A DNA stretch of 64,000 nt. Source: Stappia indica (GTDB lineage Bacteria; Pseudomonadota; Alphaproteobacteria; Rhizobiales; Stappiaceae). Numbering within the stretch: position 1 is the stretch's first letter; the number at the start of each line of letters is the position of its first letter. The stretch covers positions 124,001-188,000 of the forward strand of contig NZ_JAIVMG010000007.1 in assembly GCF_020177335.1 (NCBI RefSeq). The letters run 5' to 3'. The notes under the pieces were generated by a model. It saw only the letters and a list, made by a program, of their open reading frames with translations. It did no database searches and was not told the origin of the DNA. Shown here in pieces: positions 7,360-21,067 of the stretch. The translations under genes were made by a program, and so were the position numbers.

Positions 7360-7444
7360 GTCTAAAGTCCTCGATTATCGCAACGTGCGGTTCGCTTCAT
7401 GTCTTCGTTCACGGCCATGCCCTGCGCAGTGGCTTCGGGCAATA

Positions 7445-7467
7445 AAAAAGGCCCCCGAGGAGGCCTT
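7445..7467 (-). terminator. ilvIH attenuator (intrinsic terminator in the leader)
   Basis: On the minus strand the stem aaggcctcc / gggggcctt has a 3-nt loop and is followed by a run of T. It lies 86 nt upstream of ilvI and 29 nt downstream of the leader-peptide stop. A terminator between promoter and first gene is the signature of attenuation. Confidence 0.85.
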
Positions 7468-7470
7468 GAC

Positions 7471-7517
7471 GCGCGCTGTCGTTCCGGGAAGGGGATCACA
7501 TCCCCCCGGCAGCGCGC
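7471..7517 (-). promoter_or_regulatory. Pause hairpin overlapping the end of the ilv leader peptide
   Basis: GCGCGCTG (7471-7478) pairs with CAGCGCGC (7510-7517), with further internal pairing. The 5' arm on the RNA covers leader codons Lys14-Ala17, a few nucleotides after the Ile/Leu/Val codons. A stalled ribosome would disrupt it and free the other arm for an antiterminator fold. Confidence 0.65.
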
Positions 7518-7558
7518 TTCCCTACTACAAGAATGAGCCCGATGCCCATCATCGCCAT
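7496..7558 (-). CDS. ilvL: ilvIH leader peptide, rich in Ile/Leu/Val
   Basis: A 20-codon frame encodes MAMMGIGLILVVGKRAAGGM and stops with TGA at 7496-7498. Ile, Leu, Ile, Leu, Val and Val codons fall within seven positions (residues 6-12), matching the three end products of the IlvIH pathway. A purine-rich gaaagg precedes the ATG. It is followed by a pause hairpin and an intrinsic terminator ahead of ilvI, a complete classical attenuator. It is too short for routine gene callers. Confidence 0.85.
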   Translation of the reverse strand: MAMMGIGLILVVGKRAAGGM

Positions 7559-7629
7559 AGCCTTTCGAACAGGTGTCACCCTGGCAGGGTCGCAACACAA
7601 TCCCGCGACATCTGCTCTTGGTGCGGCGC

Positions 7630-7658
7630 AAGGTAGACGCCCCCCGGGAGAGGGTCAA
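7630..7658 (-). promoter_or_regulatory. Promoter of the ilvIH leader transcript
   Basis: On the minus strand TTGACC and TACCTT are spaced by exactly 17 bp, about 70 bp upstream of the leader-peptide ATG. The same -35 hexamer, a near-identical -10 (TACCTG) and the same spacing occur at the rnpB promoter in this window. The rest of 7659-7849 shows no gene I can support. Confidence 0.75.
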
Positions 7659-7849
7659 GCGCACTTGTCAGGAAATTTCGTAAAAATGCGCCCGGGCTTG
7701 CCGAAAGTTTCGGCCCCTTCTTTTCATGCCTCTGACCCCGGTCACGCCGCGCTTTTTTTCCAAGGCGCCGGAAACCGGCAAATTCCTGCGACATTGCGAA
7801 GTTTTCCCCAGCCCTGACACGATCACAGCGATTTTATTTCAGGTTTCGC

Positions 7850-7878
7850 TTGAAAGCACCGGGCCAGCTTTGTATATA
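7850..7878 (+). promoter_or_regulatory. tRNA-Lys promoter
   Basis: TTGAAA and TATATA are separated by 17 bp, about 60 bp upstream of the mature tRNA. This is close to the housekeeping sigma consensus. Confidence 0.75.
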
Positions 7879-7937
7879 CCCGATCCAGACGGGCGGCGCG
7901 GAACGCACCACCGCCCGGCGACGCCGAAACGGCGAGT

Positions 7938-8013
7938 GGGTGTATAGCTCAGTTGGTAGAGCAGCTGACTCTTAATCAGCCGGTCCTGGGTTCGAATCCC
8001 CGTGCACCCACCA
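7938..8013 (+). tRNA. tRNA-Lys (anticodon CUU)
   Basis: The acceptor strands GGGTGTA and TGCACCC pair (one G-T). The D-arm, the anticodon loop CTCTTAA (anticodon CTT) and the T-arm GGTTCGAATCC are canonical. CCA is encoded at 8011-8013. It decodes AAG lysine codons. Confidence 0.97.
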
Positions 8014-8100
8014 CTCCCCCCTTTCAAAAGACACGGACAAGGTCACCGGACGCGCGCGGCAAGGAGCAGCGCGGGATATGTCTGTTTGCACCTCCCGCCC

Positions 8101-8143
8101 ATGGACGCTGCACCGGAAGGAGGACCAATGCACTGCATGTCTG
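8101..8143 (+). repeat. Left copy of a diverged direct repeat flanking the AT-rich acetyltransferase
   Basis: It matches 9335-9377 at 33 of 43 positions without gaps. The right copy covers the ribosome-binding site and first codons of the extensin-like gene (ggaaggaagactg then ATG). The left copy keeps the same ggaaggagga and an ATGCACTGCATGTCTG start but leads into a dead-end frame, so it looks like a truncated second copy of that gene's 5' end. Confidence 0.6.
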
Positions 8144-8157
8144 CATGTCTGCATGTC
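8134..8157 (+). repeat. Three tandem copies of an 8-bp unit (tgcatgtc)
   Basis: The unit tgcatgtc is repeated exactly three times, extending the last bases of the left flanking repeat. The right copy at 9370 has a single unit, so this looks like local slippage in non-coding DNA. The remainder of 8014-8238 holds no supported gene. Confidence 0.8.
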
Positions 8158-8238
8158 TGCCCCCCTCACAACGAACCATCCGCTTTATCTTCGCTCCGAA
8201 GCCACCCCCGAAGAAGATGAAGAGAATGCGAAACGCCC

Positions 8239-8967
8239 TCAAACGGCGTCTTCAAGACGATCTAAAGGTGACTCATTCATAATTTTCCCATTAACAAACG
8301 TAAGCTCATCAAAATCAATTTTCATTATATCGCCGCACTTCACATGACGTTCAATCAAATCGATGGATTTATTTACGTCAGAGTATGATATTCCTTTTAG
8401 GACACGCCTATCGAGCTTATAATTCCACCAATTCAACCTTTTTATTCTCTCAATTACCCCTTCATCAAATCTGGTTTTTATCACTCTCGCTGGACTTCCA
8501 GCGACAATCGAAAATGAAGGGACATCGCGCACAACAGAACTATTGGCCGCGATGATTGCACCGTCCCCAATCTTCACACCTCTTTTGATAAAAGCCCTCG
8601 CACCAATCCAAACATCATTTCCAATAGTAGTGCGCAATGCGTTCGGCGCGTACGGCTCCGGAACCATGATATCCATGTAATCTTGCGAGTGCGCCATCGT
8701 GCCCGTATCACCAAAAACAAATGGATGGGTACTAAACCAGTCAACTGGATGCTCAAAAGGCGCAATAATAACATCATGAGCTATAGAGCAATATCTACCT
8801 ATATCAGAATTATAGCAAATTACATTTACATTTCCGTAGCTAAATGCACCAATCTTATTCAAAGAACCGCGAAAATTTATACTACTGATTATTGCAGGTC
8901 GCTCGACGCGTAAAGTCCCAGCACCCATTTTCAAAGGACGCTCTCTCAATGGGATATTTTCAATCAT
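8239..8967 (-). CDS. Hexapeptide-repeat acetyltransferase (CatB/XAT-like), probably acquired
   Basis: The protein (242 aa) belongs to the left-handed beta-helix acyltransferases. Hexapeptide repeats run from about residue 30 to 190, including IGNDVWIGARAFIKRGVKIG and the IVAGSPARVI ending typical of xenobiotic acetyltransferases (CatB, Vat) and of sugar O-acetyltransferases. An inserted loop near residues 65-100 (FEHPVDWFSTHPF) fits the XAT subgroup. The substrate is unknown: an antibiotic or a surface sugar. The start at 8967 has a strong aaggaggttgta. The gene is markedly AT-rich against its neighbours, lies beside a tRNA, and is bracketed by a direct repeat, so recent transfer is likely. 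Confidence 0.85.
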   Translation of the reverse strand: MIENIPLRERPLKMGAGTLRVERPAIISSINFRGSLNKIGAFSYGNVNVICYNSDIGRYCSIAHDVIIAPFEHPVDWFSTHPFVFGDTGTMAHSQDYMDIMVPEPYAPNALRTTIGNDVWIGARAFIKRGVKIGDGAIIAANSSVVRDVPSFSIVAGSPARVIKTRFDEGVIERIKRLNWWNYKLDRRVLKGISYSDVNKSIDLIERHVKCGDIMKIDFDELTFVNGKIMNESPLDRLEDAV

Positions 8968-9361
8968 TACAACCTCCTTAAAGTTGCAAACTTTAACAAC
9001 TTGAAGGACGTCGTCAACTTGAATATGTACCAATACACGAAAGTCCCGAGCGCACGTTTGCAGAAACCGCATCTGAGCCTCAGCAGACGTTTTACAGTCA
9101 GTCTCGCCTTCTCATATTCGATGTATAGACAGGGTTTTACAGCGCGGATCTCCCTCGACGAAGGACCCGCGCAGTAACAGCGTGGAAGGACAGTCGGGCC
9201 TGATGCCCAGATCATGCCTTCATTCGATCCCACCGACAGCGAATGCCGGCATCTGAGAAAATGCTACGATCTCCAACTCCGGTTTGCGGTCGAAGTCCTG
9301 CGTTATGCCTGATATCTATCGCTACAGCCCGTGCTTGGACACCCTCCCGGAAGGAAGACTG
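8968..9361. other. Intergenic stretch upstream of the acetyltransferase
   Basis: This ~390-bp stretch has intermediate base composition. An 88-codon minus-strand frame (9233-8967) ends in TAA overlapping the acetyltransferase ATG (TAATG), which could be translational coupling to a remnant gene. Its sequence resembles no family I recognise and its start region is weak. The right end carries the second copy of the direct repeat and the extensin-like ribosome site. Confidence 0.4.
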
Positions 9362-9377
9362 ATGCACCGCATGTCTG
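9335..9377 (+). repeat. Right copy of the diverged direct repeat
   Basis: This partner of 8101-8143 contains the ribosome-binding site and first five codons of the extensin-like gene. Together the two copies bracket about 1.2 kb holding the AT-rich acetyltransferase. Confidence 0.6.
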
Positions 9378-10090
9378 ACCGCGCCTCCGTATGGCGGATC
9401 GCCCGGCTGGCGGCGTTCATTGCCTTCTGCCTTGCGCTTGCTCCCCTCCCGCTTAGGGCTACGCCCGGACCGGTTCCGCTGCCGCCGGTCAAACCCGCCA
9501 TGGTCGCCGCCTCCTCGGCCGGCATCAGCCCGCCGAAAGCGCTCGCCCCCACGGAGCAAGGCTGCTTCGCGCGGCTCACGGCTCTTGGCGCCGCGTTTCG
9601 CCCCCTACCGCCGGTCGCCACGGCAAAAGGGTGCCGCATCGACACACCGGTCTCCCTGTCCCGCGTCGGCGACACCACCCTCTCACCGCCCGCCACCCTT
9701 GCTTGCGAAACCGCCCTGCGCTTCGCCGAGGTCTCGCGCGACATCTTCACGCCGTTGGTGCGGGATCTGAAGGGCCGGTCCATCGCGACGATCCATGTCG
9801 CCGCGTCCTATGCTTGCCGGGGCCGCAACCGGCGGCCGGGTGCCAAGCTCAGCGAACACGCCTTCGGACGCGCCATCGACGTGCGCGCGCTGACGCTGGA
9901 TGACGGTACGAGTTGGGCGGTGGAACCGCGCTCGCGCCTCAACCCGCGCTGGACCGCACGCCTGCAGCGGCGCTTGCGGGCCGGGGTCTGCGGCCCCTTC
10001 ACCACCGTCCTTGGACCGGGCTCGGACAAATACCACGACGACCATATTCATATGGATCTGGCGCGCCGGCGCAGCACCTATTGCAAGTAG
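9362..10090 (+). CDS. Extensin-like C-terminal domain protein (exported)
   Basis: The protein (242 aa) begins with a signal peptide (residues ~10-33, RIARLAAFIAFCLALAPLPLRA), then a Pro-rich stretch, then the extensin-like C-terminal domain of Rhizobiales. Conserved features are paired cysteines (GCFARL, KGCRI), SEHAFGRAIDV and the closing HDDHIHMDL, which look like metal ligands of a peptidase-like fold related to D-Ala-D-Ala carboxypeptidases. A periplasmic cell-wall role is likely but unproven. The start at 9362 is backed by ggaaggaagactg and leaves a clean signal sequence; a longer frame from 9284 is not supported. Confidence 0.85.
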   Translation: MHRMSDRASVWRIARLAAFIAFCLALAPLPLRATPGPVPLPPVKPAMVAASSAGISPPKALAPTEQGCFARLTALGAAFRPLPPVATAKGCRIDTPVSLSRVGDTTLSPPATLACETALRFAEVSRDIFTPLVRDLKGRSIATIHVAASYACRGRNRRPGAKLSEHAFGRAIDVRALTLDDGTSWAVEPRSRLNPRWTARLQRRLRAGVCGPFTTVLGPGSDKYHDDHIHMDLARRRSTYCK

Positions 10091-10235
10091 CGACTGATCT
10101 CCGTAATCCGCAGCCCCTCCCCGGAGCAACGATATTGCCTCGGACACCGGAAAGAGTAACGTGGCGACAAGGGGGCGACCGTGACGGCGAGGCGCTTCAA
10201 GTTCGCCATGGCCAGCCTCCTTGCGGCCTGGCCGC

Positions 10236-12095
10236 ATGACTGCCATCGACGCCTTCACCGGATCGCCCATGACCTCCCTGCTCGACTACCTTTTCGGTGC
10301 CGCCTCCTTTGTTCCGCATGGGGTGTGCCTGTTGTGGCGCCCGGATCTGGTCGCCATGCACGCGGTGTCCGACGCGCTGATCGCGCTGGCCTACTTTGCC
10401 ATACCGGTCGGTCTGTGGCGTTTCCTCAGGCGACGACGGGATCTGGACGAGGGGTCGCGCCGGGTCATCATGCTGTTCTCCCTGTTCATTTTCGCCTGCG
10501 GGGTGACGCATACGGCGGGCCTGGTCACCCTCTGGGTGCCGGCCTATGGCGCGCAGGGCCTCCTCAAGGCCGTCACCGCCGCGATCTCGATCTTCACCAT
10601 GGTTGTCTTCTGGAGGCAGATCCCTGCCTTGCTGGCATTGCCGACCCCGGCGCAACTGCGCAAGGCCAACGACCAACTGGCGAGAATCAACCGCGGGCTG
10701 GAGGAAACCATCGCCTACCGCCGCTTCGACCTGACCATCGCCGCCGACCGGATCAAGGACATTGCCGCCAGTGGCAATGTCACCGCCTTCGCTCAGAACA
10801 CACGCCTCGACTACATCTGGACCCACCATCCCTCGCCGGAAGGCGGGGCGCTGCCGGAGCACAGGACACCCACCGACCGCGAGCTGTTGCCCGAACCGCT
10901 TGCCGCCGCCGCCGATGCGGTCAAGCGCCGGGTTCTGGAAAGCGGGCGCAGCGAGATCGCCCGGCTTGGGCCGCTCCGGGAGGGGGGAGACGGCGAGCGG
11001 CGGGTCTGGAACCTGCGGGTGCGCCCCACCACCGATATGACCGGTGAACCGGACGGCGTTTTCTGCACCTTGCGGGATATCTCCCGCGAGAGTGCGCAGG
11101 AGGCCACCCTTGCCGACTGCAACAGCCGGCTGAAACAGTTGAAACACCGCTACGACCTGGCGCTGGAAAGCGCCCGCATCACCGTCTTCGAGCAGGACAC
11201 GGACCTGCGCTATCGCTATGTCCACAATACCCAGCGCGGGCACGCGCCCGACGACTATCTCGGCAAGACCGATGCGGAGTTGTTCAGCGAGGCCGATTGT
11301 TTCAACATTCTCCCCATCAAGACCAATGCCCTGCAGACCGGAGAGCGCCAGCGCATCGAACTCGACATCAACAGCGGCCTTGACCGCCGGACGATCCGCA
11401 TCACCATCGACCCTTGCCGGGACGCCGACGGCACCATCACGGGCATCATCGGCACCTCCGAGGATCTGACCTCACGCCGCAAGATGGAGGACCGGCTGCG
11501 CCTGACCATGCGCGAGCTGAACCACCTGTCCGAGACCATGCTGGCGACCGTCCGCTCGCTGGCGGAGCAAACCGCCGCCAGTACCGCAACGCTCGACGCC
11601 TTCATGCGCGGGTTTAGCGCACGGCTCAGGGCTCTGGCCGTCTCCCAGGAGCTTCTGGCCTCCCGATCCTGGTATGGAGCAGAGCTTGCCCAGTTGCTGC
11701 GCGCCCATCTCGGCGAGGTCCGCGATACGGCAAGACGGATGGTACGGATCGACGGCCCGCCGCTGCATGTCAACGCCGACACGGCGCAAGAACTCGGTCT
11801 GTTCTTTCACGACCTTCTCGCCCATGCGGTGCAGCATGGCAGCCTTTCCGTGGCAACCGGCTCGGTCGATGTGCACTGGGAGATTCGGGAGACCACCGTC
11901 TGCCTCACCTGGCAGGAGCGGAACGCACCGGAGCATCTCCAGGAACGGGACACACAGCCCCCCACCTGCTTCACCGCAGAGCTTTGGCGCCAACGGGTAA
12001 AGACCGCCCTTGCCGGCACAATCGCAGCGGCAAGCACCGCGAACGGCCTGTCTTGCACGATCACCTTCCCCACGGACAGGCTGGTCGGCGGATAG
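10236..12095 (+). CDS. Ethylene-receptor-like sensor: ETR1-type membrane domain, PAS region, degenerate HWE kinase
   Basis: The protein (619 aa) opens with three membrane helices (about 41-63, 77-100, 108-127). Every key ethylene/copper-site residue of plant ETR1 has a match in register: Asp46, Tyr53, Ile56, Pro57, Ile85, Cys88, His92 and Lys111 (ETR1 Asp25, Tyr32, Ile35, Pro36, Ile62, Cys65, His69, Lys91), within ALIALAYFAIP and CGVTH. Two PAS-like segments follow (about 145-290 and 300-405). The C-terminus resembles HWE histidine kinases: His430 in RELNH, His525, and W-x-E in LTWQE. The usual N-box TNA is replaced by AHA (His530 for Asn), and no glycine-rich box is visible. No response regulator is adjacent. 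The start is the ATG at 10236; 10269 is possible. Confidence 0.8.
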   Translation: MTAIDAFTGSPMTSLLDYLFGAASFVPHGVCLLWRPDLVAMHAVSDALIALAYFAIPVGLWRFLRRRRDLDEGSRRVIMLFSLFIFACGVTHTAGLVTLWVPAYGAQGLLKAVTAAISIFTMVVFWRQIPALLALPTPAQLRKANDQLARINRGLEETIAYRRFDLTIAADRIKDIAASGNVTAFAQNTRLDYIWTHHPSPEGGALPEHRTPTDRELLPEPLAAAADAVKRRVLESGRSEIARLGPLREGGDGERRVWNLRVRPTTDMTGEPDGVFCTLRDISRESAQEATLADCNSRLKQLKHRYDLALESARITVFEQDTDLRYRYVHNTQRGHAPDDYLGKTDAELFSEADCFNILPIKTNALQTGERQRIELDINSGLDRRTIRITIDPCRDADGTITGIIGTSEDLTSRRKMEDRLRLTMRELNHLSETMLATVRSLAEQTAASTATLDAFMRGFSARLRALAVSQELLASRSWYGAELAQLLRAHLGEVRDTARRMVRIDGPPLHVNADTAQELGLFFHDLLAHAVQHGSLSVATGSVDVHWEIRETTVCLTWQERNAPEHLQERDTQPPTCFTAELWRQRVKTALAGTIAAASTANGLSCTITFPTDRLVGG

Positions 12096-12251
12096 CGCCA
12101 GAACCCACCGGCACCGGCGCACGGCTGCGTATTGGCGGTTGATGCCGACAGCGGGCTCTATATGCTGCGGCGAACGTTGGCACCGTCGGCCCCTCGCCGA
12201 TTGTGCTGCGGCCTCATGAACACCCCCTCACCGCACGGGTTCCTTGCGCAG

Positions 12252-13178
12252 ATGTCCTCGATCCTCTCCATTTCCAACCTGTCCAAGACCTATGACAGTG
12301 GCTTCCAGGCCCTGAAGGCGGTCAATCTGGAGATTGAACGCGGCGAGCTGTTCGCCTTGCTCGGCCCCAATGGCGCCGGCAAGACCACCTTGATCAGCAT
12401 CATCTGCGGCATTGTCACCGCCTCGTCCGGCAAGGTAACCGTCGATGGCCATGACATCATCCGCGAGTTCCGCGCCGCCCGGTCGATGATCGGCCTCGTG
12501 CCGCAGGAGCTGACCACGGATGCATTCGAGACCGTCTGGGACACGGTCAATTTCAGCCGCGGCCTGTTCGGCAAGGGCAAGGACCCCGATCTGGTGGAAC
12601 GGGTCCTCAAGGATCTCAGCCTGTGGGACAAGAAGGACAACCGGCTGATGACGCTCTCCGGCGGCATGAAGCGCCGGGTGCTGATCGCCAAGGCGCTGGC
12701 CCACGAGCCACGCCTGTTGTTCCTCGACGAACCGACCGCCGGGGTCGATGTGGAGTTGCGCCGTGACATGTGGCGCGTGGTCCGGCGGCTGCAGGAAACC
12801 GGGGTGACGATCATCCTCACCACCCATTACATCGAAGAGGCGGAGGACCTTGCCGATCGGGTCGGCGTGATCAACAAGGGCGAGATCATCCTGGTGGAGA
12901 ACAAGGCCGAGCTGATGCACAAGCTGGGCCGCAAGCAACTGACCCTGCATCTGGCCGAGCCGATCGCCGCGATCCCCGATGCCCTGGCCGAACACCAGCT
13001 TGAGCTTCAATCAGGCGGCGAAGCCCTCGTCTACACCTATGACACACGGGGCGAGCGCACCGGCATCACCGCGCTTTTGCAGGACATTCACGCGGCCGGC
13101 ATCCGCTTCCGCGATCTCAACACCAAACAGAGTTCGCTCGAAGAGATTTTCGTCGATCTCGTGAAGGCTCCGTCATGA
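12252..13178 (+). CDS. ABC transporter ATP-binding protein (YadG-like)
   Basis: The protein (308 aa) is the ATPase of an ABC-2 type exporter. Walker A is GPNGAGKTT (about residues 40-48), the signature is LSGGMKRR, Walker B is [12 protein letters not shown], and the switch histidine is in [15 protein letters not shown]. The C-terminal ~70 residues form the accessory domain common to drug and polysaccharide exporters. The start ATG at 12252 matches family N-termini ([14 protein letters not shown]). The stop overlaps the permease start (ATGA), so the two are translationally coupled. Confidence 0.93.
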
Positions 13179-13936
13179 ACCTTTATGCCATCAACGCCAT
13201 CTACCGTTTCGAGATGGCCCGCACCGGCCGCACCCTGTTCCAGAGCATCATCTCGCCGGTGATCTCCACATCGCTCTATTTCGTCGTCTTCGGCGCGGCC
13301 ATCGGCTCGCGCATCAGCGAGGTCGACGGGGTCAGCTACGGCGCCTTCATCGTGCCGGGGCTGATCATGCTGTCGCTGCTGACCCAGAGCCTGTCGAACG
13401 CCTCCTTCGGCATCTATTTCCCGCGCTTCACCGGCACCATCTACGAGGTGCTGTCCGCGCCGGTCTCCTATCTGGAAATCGTCATCGCCTATGTGGGCGC
13501 GGCGGCAACCAAATCGATCATCGTCGGGCTGATCATCCTGGCCACCGCCGGGCTGTTCGTGCCGCTGGAAATCCAGCATCCGGGCTGGATGCTGCTGTTC
13601 CTGGTGCTGACCTCGGTCACCTTCGCCCTGTTCGGCTTCATCATCGGCATCTGGGCCGGAAACTTCGAACAGCTGCAACTGGTGCCGCTCCTGATCGTCA
13701 CCCCGCTCGCCTTCCTGGGCGGCAGCTTCTATTCGATTTCCATGCTGCCCCCGGCGTGGCAGACGGTGACCCTGTTCAATCCGGTGGTCTATCTGATCAG
13801 CGGTTTTCGCTGGAGCTTCTATGGCATGGCGGATGTGGGCGTCGGCGTCAGCCTGGCCATGACGCTGCTGTTCCTCGCCATTTGCATCGCCATCATCGCC
13901 TGGATCTTCAAGACCGGTTACCGGCTGAAATCCTGA
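13175..13936 (+). CDS. ABC-2 type transporter permease (YadH-like)
   Basis: The protein (253 aa) has six predicted membrane helices of the ABC2_membrane family, including the conserved stretch [31 protein letters not shown]. With the overlapping ATPase gene it forms a complete two-gene exporter; the cargo cannot be inferred. It converges on thyA. Confidence 0.92.
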
Positions 13937-15402: not shown

Positions 15403-15551
15403 GCTGCTCCCTTTCCCTTCCCCGGCCCCTGCACTCGCCGTCACCATAGCGCCGGCAACCGACATCGCCCAATGACGTCAAGTCACAAGGCCGGCACCCC
15501 TGGTGATGGAAATTCGTCACTCCGCCCCTTTTCTCCGCCCCGACAAGTCCT

Positions 15552-15557
15552 TATATT
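15552..15557 (+). promoter_or_regulatory. Likely -10 element of ssrA
   Basis: TATATT lies immediately before the permuted tmRNA gene. Seventeen bases upstream is only a weak -35 (TTTTCT), so the promoter call rests mainly on the -10 and its position. Confidence 0.4.
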
Positions 15558-15561
15558 GCGT

Positions 15562-15920
15562 GGTGCCGGTGCAAGCTGGCTATGACGATAAACGAGTTAC
15601 GTAATAAGCCTATCGGACCCGGGGGCGGTACCCGGCGCCTCCACCAAAGCCCGTCGTGTCATGGCGTGTCGCCTGGGCGCATTGCCAGGGCGGACAGCCC
15701 GGAACGGCGGGTTTTGGCGGGGGCGAAATAGGATCGACGAGGGTGTAAAGGTAATTTCTTCGTTCGGCATGGTACCGCCGTTATCGGGCCGAATCAGTAG
15801 TTGCAAATGACAACTCTGCTATGGACAACGCTGTCGCCGCGTAATGCGGTGCCGGTAGTCCTTTAAGTCCTGTTGGTTAGCCCCTTCAGGCGGGGTCCGG
15901 AGGCACCTGGCAACAGAAGC
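15562..15920 (+). ncRNA. ssrA: Two-piece, circularly permuted tmRNA
   Basis: The acceptor piece comes first and ends CGCCTCC-A-CCA at 15636-15646. An intervening segment follows. The coding piece starts with GGGGGCG at 15719, whose bases pair with CGCCTCC and give the G3-U pair that alanyl-tRNA synthetase reads. It continues with the conserved GGATCGACGAGGG. The tag frame at 15803-15844 encodes ANDNSAMDNAVAA and stops with TAA. This order is the permuted arrangement known from alphaproteobacteria; the transcript is cut into two RNAs. The outer ends given are approximate. tmRNA rescues stalled ribosomes with SmpB. Confidence 0.93.
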
Positions 15921-16112
15921 CTCCACTTCTTTCCTCCAGAGTGCCGGACCGGTGAAATCCATGAAAATTCAGGAACTTCACCTACAATCACACTGAGGTC
16001 GCCGGCGCGCCAACCCGGAAGACCGGCAAAGGCGTGATCGAAGCCTTTTCATTTGCCCCTTGTCGCGCCATGTTTGGCGAAACACCGACTCAACCCCCGG
16101 CAGTTGCGAGCG

Positions 16113-17209: not shown

Positions 17210-20200
17210 TTAGCGATCCGGCGTCACGTCGATGAACACCGGAGGCTCCAGCGGTGGCAGCAATTGCATGGGCTGGCCCGGCCGCTTGTCCGCCCCGGCC
17301 CTGGCGGGCGTTTCGACTGCCTCAAGCGCCCGGCGGATCCGGCTGCCGAAATCGGGCTGCTGCGGGGCGTCTGGCGTACGCCCACGATCGGCGGCAATCG
17401 GCTTGGGCGGCAGCGGACGTACCGCGCCCGCCTCGGGTTGCCGCGCCTCGGGTTTTTCCGTCTCCACCGCAGCACCGGCGTCCGCCGGGGCGGTCTGATC
17501 CGCATCGCTGGCCTCTGCCGGCGCCGGTGCTGGCGCCAGCGCCCGCTCCGCCTCTTCCCGCTCGCGTCGCCGTTTTTCCTCTCGGGCCCGCCGCAACTCG
17601 CGCATCAACCGGTCCCGCTCGGTGATTTCCGCCTGCAGCTCCTCCACCCGCCGCACCTCCTGTTCGAAGGCGCGCAAGGTCAGGAAGGCTGTGAAGGGGG
17701 TGATATCGATGGTCCGGGACGGCGCCGCCAGATCTCCGGAAAACACCAGCCCGACCTCCGGCTCCGCCCCGGTCACCGCCTCTTCGCCCGCCTCCACCTT
17801 GAGCGCGAAATCGCTTTGCAGGGTCTTCTCCTCCAGATCGACCTGAGCGCTGCCGAAGACACTGGCGCCCGTATCGCCGTCGGCATTGTCGAGGGTGACG
17901 TTGCTGATCCGCACCACACCACCGGCCACGGAAAAGCTGCCCTCCAGCGCGTCGAACCCAAGCCGCCCCGTATCGAGATGGCTGGCGAAGGCCTCGCGCA
18001 CGGTCGCGTCATCCACATCGAGCCCGGCGTCCACCGCCCGGATCACCAGCCCGAACGCCTCCGGATTGAGCCCCCGGATCTCGCCGGCACCGACCTTCAC
18101 CGTGCCGCCGCCCGAAAGGCTGGCGACAATCCCGGCAACCGATCGTCCGGCACCTTCAAGGCGAAGCGCCAGATCAAACCGGCCGGTCGCCACAGGACGC
18201 CCGCCACGCCGCCAGATCAGATCCTCCAGCACCGCCCCCTCCAGCCGCAGTGACGCAGTGAGACCGGCCTGTCCGCCAGAGCGGGTCAGCCCATAGCTGC
18301 CGCTCAACTGGCCGCCGGCGAACCCGGCCTCGCTGATGTCCAGCGTCAGCGCCTCGTTCTTCAGCGACAGGCGCCCGGTCAGTTGCGAGGCTTCCGGCCC
18401 CACACCCAGATCCGCCGTCCTCGCGGTGACGTCGACCGCAATATCGACCGCCGGCAGGATCGGCGCGGTGAACGCCGCCTCGGGCCAGGCTCCGCTTGTG
18501 GCAGCGGAAAACTGATCCGCGCCAAGCACCAGATCACTGAGGCCGGCAAGATCCAGATCCGACAGGTCGAGCTGTCCCCGCACTCTCGGCTCGGCACTGG
18601 AAACGCCCCGGCGCAGGTCCATCTGCAATGCGCCATCGACCCGCACACCGGCGACGGATCCGCTGATGCCGGTCAGCTCAAAGGTATCGCCCGCGCCCTT
18701 CAGGCCCATGGCGAGATCGACCGTCCCGGCGCTGCTTGACAGGGACGGCAACCGCCCGGTCACCAGCGTCAGCGGTAAAAGATCCTCCGCCCGGGCAACC
18801 ACATCGGCGCTGTAGCGCGCCGCGCCGGTCCGGGGCAAGACGACACGGCCCACCGCCTCCAGCGAGGCGCCGCCGAGGTAAAGCCGGGCATAGCCATCCA
18901 GTCCGTCTTCGGGTATACCGCCGGCGCCCAGTTCCAGCCGCGCTTCGCCGAGACTGGCGACCGGCAACACCGTCACCCCGGTCTGGGCGAGAAGCCTGCC
19001 GCCATCCGCCGCCGTGAAGCCCGCCTCGAAATCCACCTTCGCCTCGTCCCAACGGTCGATCCGTCCGGTCAGTCCGGCGCTGACATCGACCTCGGTGCCG
19101 CCGGCATTGCCGCGCGCGGTCAATGTCACCCGCGACTGCGCACCGCCACCACTGCCGCTGGCCTCGCCGGTGAAATCCAACTCCAGCTTCGCCGGCGAGA
19201 ACTCCGCCGCCCGGCGGGTGAAGCGACGCAAGCCCTGCGCCTCGGGGAAGAGGGTTTCGAGGAGCGCGGCCACGCCGGACATCCGCCGCGCGTCCACGGT
19301 GGCCTTGACCTGGCCGGACGGCGCCTGCGACAGGGCCTCCACCTCACCGCTGGCGATGAGGTTCGCGCCGGCAAGGTCGGAGACCGTCAACTCGTCGATT
19401 GTCAGCCGGTCGTCCTCATAAGCGGCCCTGAGCGCTACCGTCTTCGCGGTGAAGTCCTCGATCCGGACTTCCTGCGCGAACAGGCGCAGCGCGAATTGCG
19501 TTGCCGCACCGTGCAGGCTCTCCAGAACGCCGTCCTCGCCGTCCAGGAACACCTGCGCGAGCAGCGCCACCTGATCCGAGTTCAGCCGATCCGCATCGAG
19601 ATCGGCCTCCAGCTTCGCCGCCCCTTTGGCCGGCGCGCCCGAGTCGGCCGCCGTATAGGAGACCGCGCCCCGCAGCGCATCCGCTCCCAGCTCCACCGTC
19701 AGATCGGTCAGAGCGAAACCGCCTTCGGAGGCCGAGACCCGGCTTTCCACCGCGAAGGGATCGACGGCCGCATCGAGCGCCACCCCGTGGCGCCACCAGT
19801 CGGCAAAGGCATTGGGCTGTGCCACGGCGGCGGCAAAGCTGCCCCGGAACGCCGGAGCCGGCTGCAATTCCAGATCGCCGCGCAACAGCACCTCGCTTCG
19901 TCCCGGCAACCGGCCCGACAGCTCCCGCAGCCGCCAGCCGCTGGCCAGCCGCTCCGCGTCAATCCGCATATCCTGGGCAAGACCGCCGCCAGCGACCAGC
20001 GCCGGCACATCGAGACGGACCCGGCCCGGGATCGAAGGATGCGGCAGGGCGCGCAGGGCGGACAGCAAAAGGCGCCCGGCCTCCGGCACCGCCAGCGGCT
20101 CCTGCGGCCCGCGCCCGGCCATGCGGTCGAGATCAACCTGCTTGGCCCGCGCCTGGACATCGAACCCGTAGGGCGCGGTCAGGGCCACGCCCAACCGCCC

Positions 20201-21067
20201 TTCCAGCGTCATCGGCCGCTCATCCGGGCCGTAGCGCAGGGAAGCTTCGGTCAGGTTCAGCGCGGCGACATCAAGCGTGAAGGTCCCCTCGCTCTTCCAC
20301 GCCTGTGCCCACTCCTCTTCCGGCGTCACCGAGGTCAGGGCGTAGCTGCCCTCATAGGCCGGGCGTCCCCCATCCTGGCTCAGCCGTCCATCCATGATCA
20401 GATCGAGCGGAACGGAAATCGGCGTCAGCCGGGTGCGCAGCCGCACCGCGCCGGCCTCGTCGCGCCGGCCGGTCGCCATCATCACCGTGGCCCGCTCGCC
20501 GGCGAACCGGGCGGTGCCGTCGATCTTGTAGGGGCCGAGCAGCGAACGCGCCGCCACCAGAATGTCGATATCGTCGACCCGGTGGCTGCGGCCCGAGCGG
20601 GCGTCGATCACCGTCACGCTGCCATCGGTGATGTCCACCTGTTCCAGCATCACCTGATCCGGATCGAGCGAGGACAGCATGCTCTGACGCCCCAACCCGG
20701 TAAACCAGTCAAGCCGGCCCTGCTCATCCAGCGACAGCGTGAGCTCGGGCTTGTCCAGATGCATGTCGATGATGCGCAATTCGCCCTTGAGGAGCGGCGG
20801 CAACTCGATCCGCACCTCGAAACGCGACACCGCCAACAGCGGATCTTCCGGCGCGCCCACCCTGACATCGGAGAAGGTCAGCGTCGGCGTTGGCAACAGG
20901 CGCATCTGCGCCTCGCCCATCACCGCCACCTTGTGACCGAGCATCTGCTCGCCGTAGGTCTCGAAGGTGGTGCGATAGGCGGTCCAGTCGATGAAGAACG
21001 GCCCCACCAGCGCCGCCAGCAGCGCCAGGATCAACGCGACACCAATGGTGATGTAGATCGAGTTCAG
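17210..21067 (-). CDS. AsmA-family protein (very large), possible CTG start
   Basis: The protein (1285 aa from the start chosen) has one N-terminal membrane anchor (about 3-24, IYITIGVALILALLAALVGPFFIDW). An AsmA N-domain follows (VRVGAPEDPLLAVSRFEVRIELPPLLKGELRI), then a long repetitive beta-rich region and an AsmA_2-type C-domain (GGTVKVGAGEIRGLNPEAF). It ends in a charged coiled coil (about 1155-1195) and a Pro/Ala tail. AsmA-like proteins are implicated in phospholipid transport and outer-membrane assembly. The first standard in-frame start (TTG 21034) cuts into the anchor. A CTG at 21067 sits just after ggagagag and restores the family N-terminus NSIYITIGV. Confidence 0.85.
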   Translation of the reverse strand: MNSIYITIGVALILALLAALVGPFFIDWTAYRTTFETYGEQMLGHKVAVMGEAQMRLLPTPTLTFSDVRVGAPEDPLLAVSRFEVRIELPPLLKGELRIIDMHLDKPELTLSLDEQGRLDWFTGLGRQSMLSSLDPDQVMLEQVDITDGSVTVIDARSGRSHRVDDIDILVAARSLLGPYKIDGTARFAGERATVMMATGRRDEAGAVRLRTRLTPISVPLDLIMDGRLSQDGGRPAYEGSYALTSVTPEEEWAQAWKSEGTFTLDVAALNLTEASLRYGPDERPMTLEGRLGVALTAPYGFDVQARAKQVDLDRMAGRGPQEPLAVPEAGRLLLSALRALPHPSIPGRVRLDVPALVAGGGLAQDMRIDAERLASGWRLRELSGRLPGRSEVLLRGDLELQPAPAFRGSFAAAVAQPNAFADWWRHGVALDAAVDPFAVESRVSASEGGFALTDLTVELGADALRGAVSYTAADSGAPAKGAAKLEADLDADRLNSDQVALLAQVFLDGEDGVLESLHGAATQFALRLFAQEVRIEDFTAKTVALRAAYEDDRLTIDELTVSDLAGANLIASGEVEALSQAPSGQVKATVDARRMSGVAALLETLFPEAQGLRRFTRRAAEFSPAKLELDFTGEASGSGGGAQSRVTLTARGNAGGTEVDVSAGLTGRIDRWDEAKVDFEAGFTAADGGRLLAQTGVTVLPVASLGEARLELGAGGIPEDGLDGYARLYLGGASLEAVGRVVLPRTGAARYSADVVARAEDLLPLTLVTGRLPSLSSSAGTVDLAMGLKGAGDTFELTGISGSVAGVRVDGALQMDLRRGVSSAEPRVRGQLDLSDLDLAGLSDLVLGADQFSAATSGAWPEAAFTAPILPAVDIAVDVTARTADLGVGPEASQLTGRLSLKNEALTLDISEAGFAGGQLSGSYGLTRSGGQAGLTASLRLEGAVLEDLIWRRGGRPVATGRFDLALRLEGAGRSVAGIVASLSGGGTVKVGAGEIRGLNPEAFGLVIRAVDAGLDVDDATVREAFASHLDTGRLGFDALEGSFSVAGGVVRISNVTLDNADGDTGASVFGSAQVDLEEKTLQSDFALKVEAGEEAVTGAEPEVGLVFSGDLAAPSRTIDITPFTAFLTLRAFEQEVRRVEELQAEITERDRLMRELRRAREEKRRREREEAERALAPAPAPAEASDADQTAPADAGAAVETEKPEARQPEAGAVRPLPPKPIAADRGRTPDAPQQPDFGSRIRRALEAVETPARAGADKRPGQPMQLLPPLEPPVFIDVTPDR

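Follow-up and report, generated by a model that had tools for sequence, protein, structure and literature searches.

The window analysed here is a stretch of 64,000 nucleotides from Stappia indica (contig NZ_JAIVMG010000007.1, positions 124,001 to 188,000), and the gene in question encodes an ethylene-receptor-like protein, in which a well-kept ethylene-binding membrane domain is joined to a degenerate histidine kinase of the HWE type. The gene and its parts are the following, the limits of the two PAS regions having been set by us.

10236..12095, + strand: whole gene, ethylene-receptor-like protein of 619 residues, open reading frame without internal stop
10272..10640, + strand: ethylene-binding membrane domain, residues 13-135 (ETR1_N, 6.6e-33; D46, Y53, I56, P57, I85, C88, H92 and K111)
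10776..11105, + strand: first PAS-like region, residues 181-290 (best Pfam PAS stretch 248-282)
11106..11480, + strand: second PAS domain, residues 291-415 (Pfam PAS_4, 2.7e-22, best stretch 316-415)
11481..11690, + strand: HWE DHp region, residues 416-485 (HWE_HK, 1.3e-17; His430 kept, HRxxN broken to ELNHLSET)
11691..12092, + strand: degenerate ATP-binding region, residues 486-619 (N-box Asn replaced by His530, G1 box NAP, G2 box CFT; lid 560-580 hypervariable)

Since most family homologs begin at Met12 (base 10269), as their first in-frame ATG, this residue may be the true start of the window protein, and the product from there has 608 residues. Pfam found no GAF domain in the protein and matched PAS domains instead. 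In its own genome (4.66 Mb, 99.97% complete) the protein is the sole ETR1_N match and the sole HWE match.

The ETR1_N match covers residues 38-135 of the protein and positions 2-97 of the 97 in the profile, and all seven ethylene-binding residues (DYIPICH at 46, 53, 56, 57, 85, 88 and 92) are kept in the family alignment. A preliminary description of this DNA had placed these residues and Lys111 in register with ETR1 and had proposed a profile search of the membrane domain against ethylene-binding models; every one of the residues lies where it had been put, in columns of the family, and the search returned the ETR1_N match. The copper site of ETR1 consists of Asp25, Cys65 and His69 (excerpt of PMC12643061), and the spacing of Asp46, Cys88 and His92, all in family columns, fits these three. 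A chance match of Cys and His in another membrane family was ruled out by the ETR1_N score together with the seven residues kept. The remaining positions of the ETR1 pocket were matched to window residues on correspondences that we presume. The window protein probably binds Cu(I) and ethylene. A membrane protein that binds copper and has no role in ethylene perception would be in keeping with the retained ligands Asp46, Cys88 and His92, ethylene binding being a prediction from the sequence, but conservation extends beyond the three ligands to all seven ethylene-binding residues, and we regard this explanation as rather improbable. The earlier view that ethylene-binding domains occur in cyanobacteria and a few other bacteria proved too narrow, as ETR1_N has matches in 42 of 297 genomes sampled from the order, although the copper residues are not kept in every one.

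For the kinase the protein was compared with its homologs in 87 genomes of the family, which we take to be the Stappiaceae, the window genome being G000. Full-length homologs numbered 26, with intact kinase motifs in 24 and degenerate motifs in two, namely those of G000 and of G371, taken to be Stappia taiwanensis. The proteins of this pair are 93% identical, and the identity of the window protein to intact homologs of the genus is 42-46%. Pfam recognised HWE_HK at residues 427-508 and an ATPase family at 0.043 only. His430 is present, as are His525, Trp559 and Glu561, in agreement with the assignment in the preliminary description; the His and the Trp-x-Glu are what we take to be marks of HWE kinases. 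The N-box reads HDLLAHAVQHG, compared with HELTTNAAKYG in most relatives, and the Asn found in 24/24 intact relatives is replaced by His530. The DHp motif ELTHRSKN has become ELNHLSET, with HRSKN in all 24 intact relatives and HLSET in both degenerate species, which also have CFT in the G2 box, where the 24 have GFG. The G1 box is NAP in the window protein and xGP in all of the intact relatives (GGP in 19 of them); as the G1 box of G371 is NGP, which occurs in two intact relatives too, the G1 loss is peculiar to the window protein. The alignment therefore bears out what had been read from the window alone about the N-box and the missing glycine-rich box. His530, whose conservation in orthologs had been left as a check, is found in only 2 of the 26 homologs, and kinase decay is, by these motifs, a trait of the lineage of G000 and G371. 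An assembly or frameshift artefact was ruled out by G371, a second species with its own assembly, an open frame and the same His530, HLSET and CFT.

The closest solved relatives of the kinase part are the blue-light-activated histidine kinases 6ph4 (5.1e-21) and 5epv (4.1e-20), both of which retain the N-box Asn at the column of His530. In the kinase RT-HK, substitution of the Mg-chelating Asn (N256A) left no measurable autophosphorylation (excerpt of PMC12148442). Because the Asn for Mg and ATP, a glycine box and HRxxN have been lost, the window kinase should neither bind ATP, nor autophosphorylate, nor relay phosphate.

The intact relatives point to the system from which this kinase may have come. 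In 24/24 family genomes with an intact kinase, phyR lies 426-1841 bp from the receptor gene, and in 15 of these loci, read with their flanks, EcfG was present in 15/15 and NepR and a CsbD gene in 14/15 each, G310 being the one without NepR and CsbD. Pfam on the G370 locus gave PhyR, an ECF sigma factor, CsbD and a ferritin-like protein, with a receiver-only protein below the cut-off. The PhyR-NepR-EcfG partner switch is fed by HWE/HisKA_2 kinases (excerpt of PMC5898713). The receptor is the sole HWE match in four genus relatives (G362, G365, G368 and G370), and G370 has one further HisKA_2 match elsewhere in the genome. Most likely the kinases of the intact relatives control the phosphorylation of PhyR and hence the general stress response, as their gene neighbourhoods suggest. 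Outside the family, 39 further loci of the order were compared (24 with HWE-type and 15 with other kinase types, some stretches ending at contig ends), and PhyR lay within the fetched stretch for 15 of the 24 HWE-type receptors versus 1 of the 15 others (p 0.0007, kinship uncorrected); the PhyR near the receptor of G017 is divergent (36-39% identity). Among the nine unlinked HWE receptors, PhyR was found elsewhere in the genome in all six that were checked (the others being those of G135, G166 and G189). None of the matches listed in the open-licence literature joined ethylene receptors with the PhyR system; PMC4377440 mentions ethylene and PhyR, but the term ‘ethylene receptor’ does not occur in its excerpt. 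Six family relatives (L053-L058) have an intact kinase beside PhyR and have lost copper ligands, the reverse of the window protein.

In the window lineage the partners of the switch are missing. PhyR was not found in G000 or G371 in the search of the 87 genomes, where the best matches (5.6e-8 and 1.6e-7) covered the receiver part only, and a second PhyR query reached 4.8e-5 in G000 and 5.5e-5 in G371, compared with 2.5e-77 or better in 10/10 other receptor-bearing genomes. NepR was found in 12/14 genus genomes and is absent from exactly G000 and G371. EcfG was found at 1.0e-54 or better in 12/14, and at best at 27% identity in the pair. Neither genome has a HisKA_2 match, and each has a single HWE match, the receptor itself. 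In the whole family, full-length PhyR (E 3.5e-73 or better) occurs in 44 of the 87 genomes, and 44/44 of these match the window protein. Among the 43 genomes lacking it, 37 have no match to the window protein and six do: G000 and G371; G299 and G304, whose PhyR is broken or partial; and G350 and G354, whose matches are weak (~6e-4). It appears that receptors of this type vanish when PhyR vanishes, G000 and G371 being the exception, with a dead kinase; the general stress response seems lost in the window lineage, and the kinase apparently went dead once its partner had gone. In G299 the PhyR match falls into three pieces (contig C42:105960-106733), and in G304 it extends over residues 1-128 with a stop (contig C2:1134931-1135314), possibly a loss of the stress response in progress.

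The absence of PhyR also bears on a role like that of PhyT/PhyP, in which His430 would take part in phosphotransfer, as a phosphotransferase or phosphatase, although ATP binding is gone. Kinases with a degenerate ATPase domain do have such a role in the general stress response (excerpt of PMC5898713), and His430 is kept in both species. PhyP/PhyT, however, has HRxxN and acts on PhyR, while the window protein has lost the R and the N, and PhyR was not found. With HRxxN and PhyR both missing, a relay of the PhyT kind is unlikely, and we consider this role the least probable of those weighed here.

How the two ends of the protein have been kept can be read from the substitution rates (omega, NG86) between the window gene and the G371 gene. 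The ethylene-binding domain, with 25 synonymous and 3 nonsynonymous changes and an omega of 0.037, is under strong purifying selection. The ATPase part has an omega of 0.40 (bootstrap 0.23-0.74), compared with 0.028-0.169 in 14 pairs of intact homologs, and its 28 nonsynonymous changes differ from the 3 in the ethylene-binding domain at a Fisher p of 7.8e-6. Judged by the positions that do not vary among the 18 homologs whose pocket is complete, the window protein is altered at 3/55 in the ethylene-binding domain and at 41/100 in the kinase, and by this count the pocket domain is the exception to the drift. In quick trees, with Shimodaira-Hasegawa-like approximate likelihood ratio test (SH-aLRT) support only, the branch shared by the degenerate pair measures 1.38 changes per site for the sensor and 4.53 for the kinase.

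These numbers have to be held against a decaying gene, in which the receptor would be eroding from its C-terminus after the loss of the stress response and the intact pocket would be a lag. The kinase decay does coincide with the absence of PhyR, NepR and EcfG, and a further 39 family genomes lack even a piece of PhyR, 37 of them having no match to the window protein and two a weak one. On the other hand, the omega of the ethylene-binding domain, the few invariant positions altered in it and the full open reading frame kept in both species all speak for retention, and we find decay unlikely. The kinase end itself points the same way: in the degenerate pair the DHp part (p 0.024) and the ATPase part (p 0.003) still depart from neutrality, and the ATPase residue differences between the two species concentrate in lid 560-580 (11/21, versus 14/113 outside). 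An ATPase part that is not neutral, with its changes clustered in the lid, speaks against plain pseudogene decay.

Such a pattern, with no stop or frameshift in either species, would suit a functional pseudokinase receptor, in which the kinase fold serves as a docking platform and copper or ethylene alters protein contacts; the subfamily-2 ethylene receptors of plants offer a precedent (excerpt of PMC3611092). Nevertheless, no candidate partner was found, and the 41 altered kinase positions stand against it. We see this sharper form of our preferred explanation as quite possible, its chances falling somewhat short of even.

The surroundings of the gene are listed here.

9284..10090, + strand: upstream neighbour, protein with extensin-like C-terminal domain (Pfam, 1.3e-45); beside the receptor in G371 too
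12258..13936, + strand: downstream neighbours, ABC ATPase and ABC-2 membrane protein (Pfam)
8239-9072, - strand: hexapeptide-repeat transferase open reading frame beside tRNA-Lys; not found at the G371 locus

Farther upstream lie acetolactate synthase genes and the tRNA-Lys (7938-8013), and the gene order is the same in G371. The ABC pair is present in 14/14 genus genomes, and neither the receptor nor the extensin gene stands beside it in the 8/8 other genus loci examined. As all eight of these loci are without the receptor, the position that it now occupies is probably derived. In six relatives, extensin-like genes are located elsewhere, without a receptor. No regulator gene was found beside the window receptor. 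Its position between the tRNA-Lys and the ABC genes may mark a genomic island, but no direct repeat of the tRNA-Lys end was found within 7380-12300. Other features of the window are an alphaproteobacterial (permuted) transfer-messenger RNA at 15525-15927 (Rfam 4.4e-85; ARAGORN tag ANDNSAMDNAVAA), a match to the Rhizobiales small RNA Atu_C8 at 7434-7550 on the - strand beside an acetolactate synthase gene (53 bits, the gathering score being 50), and a 97-base tRNA-Phe called by ARAGORN at 20144-20240, which is not in the Rfam scan and is probably false.

Taken together we hold it to be probable, if by no great measure, that the window protein is a kinase-dead ethylene/copper sensor, descended from a stress-response kinase and kept for its input domain. 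The ancestor would have had an ethylene-receptor membrane domain and an intact HWE kinase at the phyR-nepR-ecfG locus, with PhyR as its presumed target. In the lineage of G000 and G371 the gene would have come to stand outside the stress locus, and phyR, nepR and ecfG would have disappeared, in an order that we can only infer; the kinase, being without a partner, would then have lost the Mg/ATP Asn, a glycine box and HRxxN. Purifying selection on the ethylene/copper domain has remained strong, from which we conclude that the protein is retained for its input. Cu(I) and ethylene are probably still bound, and action, if any, would be by a change of shape and protein contact. The interpretation in the preliminary description, an intact pocket on a kinase that should not bind ATP, stands on profile, alignment, homolog survey and substitution rates; its suggestion of another partner or a decoy stays at the level of a guess about the output, pseudokinase contact signalling being the leading one.

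Several observations weigh against this explanation. The absence of PhyR, NepR and EcfG and the decay of the kinase are one event on the tree, in two sister species, so that the 24:2 split counts as a single independent observation. Drift is not confined to the kinase, as the linker and PAS part is altered at 27/73 invariant positions, and the ATPase part, as said, is not neutral. The sensor tree places the pair immediately outside the rest of the family (SH-aLRT 91), and on the kinase tree it sits on a very long branch near others; a genome that already lacked PhyR may instead have acquired the receptor from another source. Probably the gene either moved out of the stress locus or arrived on its own, and the sensor tree, with its support of 91, does not decide between the two. 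In the order, 9/24 HWE receptors have no PhyR in the fetched stretch. A copper ligand is missing in 6/24 family relatives with an intact kinase (the Cys replaced by Gly, Asn or Tyr, or the His by Glu, Gln or Lys), and one or more are missing in 11/15 PhyR-linked receptors elsewhere in the order, a count that includes one receptor whose region does not align. The domain on stress kinases therefore need not sense ethylene; judged by the ligands, members of this group have often lost the sensor and kept the kinase, and the window protein is the reverse. Models built by AlphaFold from two-row alignments, one for residues 404-619 and one for the full-length protein, had mean predicted local distance difference test (pLDDT) values of 51 and 40 and were not used.

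Three things are already known singly: ethylene receptors in bacteria, stress-response kinases that have degenerated, and ethylene receptors of plants whose kinases have diverged. According to the excerpt of PMC11819568, AzoEtr1 of Azospirillum brasilense binds ethylene, and its authors predicted that it autophosphorylates and passes the phosphate on to an adjacent response regulator. The N-terminal ethylene-binding domain with the seven residues, followed by PAS and kinase, is shared by the window protein, which differs in its two PAS regions, its degenerate HWE kinase and the lack of an adjoining regulator gene. Closer by are the ethylene-domain HWE kinases of the family (L073-L087), which have the same domain order and, unlike the window protein, an intact kinase and phyR-nepR-ecfG neighbours. 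PhyP/PhyT of Sphingomonas melonis is likewise a relative of kinases that is anchored in the membrane and has a degenerated ATPase domain (excerpt of PMC5898713), but it keeps HRxxN and has PhyR as its target, and the window protein has neither. Three PhyR-linked receptor-like HWE proteins without the ethylene residues (L129, L130 and L132, of G223, G292 and G180) and a fourth in which that region does not align (L111, of G027) keep HRSKN and have lost the N-box Asn (HELVVAAA and similar), and may be proteins of the PhyT type.

The plant subfamily-2 receptors ETR2, ERS2 and EIN4 also combine an ethylene-binding domain with a diverged His kinase domain, and EIN4 keeps the phosphoacceptor His as well (excerpt of PMC3611092). 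They differ in having GAF and, in some, receiver domains, where the window protein has PAS and an HWE-type kinase, and the kinase-decayed receptors of plants and of the window lineage would have arisen separately. No report joining a bacterial ethylene-binding domain with a pseudokinase was found in the open-licence literature. The excerpts consulted name two species, Synechocystis and Azospirillum, in which bacterial ethylene signalling has been traced back to a receptor, and the signal passes, or is predicted to pass, via kinase activity.

A naturally occurring receptor whose pocket is kept and whose kinase is dead offers a probe of whether bacteria, like plants, use ethylene receptors without a phosphorelay. 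In the widest form of the argument, which we put forward only tentatively and think doubtful as a whole, ethylene-receptor-type kinases would be PhyR kinases in a large alphaproteobacterial group, in which ethylene could set the stress response, and the window lineage would keep a kinase-dead sensor, in parallel to the plant subfamily-2 receptors, with an output other than phosphorelay. From the linkage to phyR-nepR-ecfG one would predict that the general stress response shifts under ethylene (or copper) in the relatives of this Stappia, and this link between ethylene receptors and the stress response may matter more than the window gene itself.
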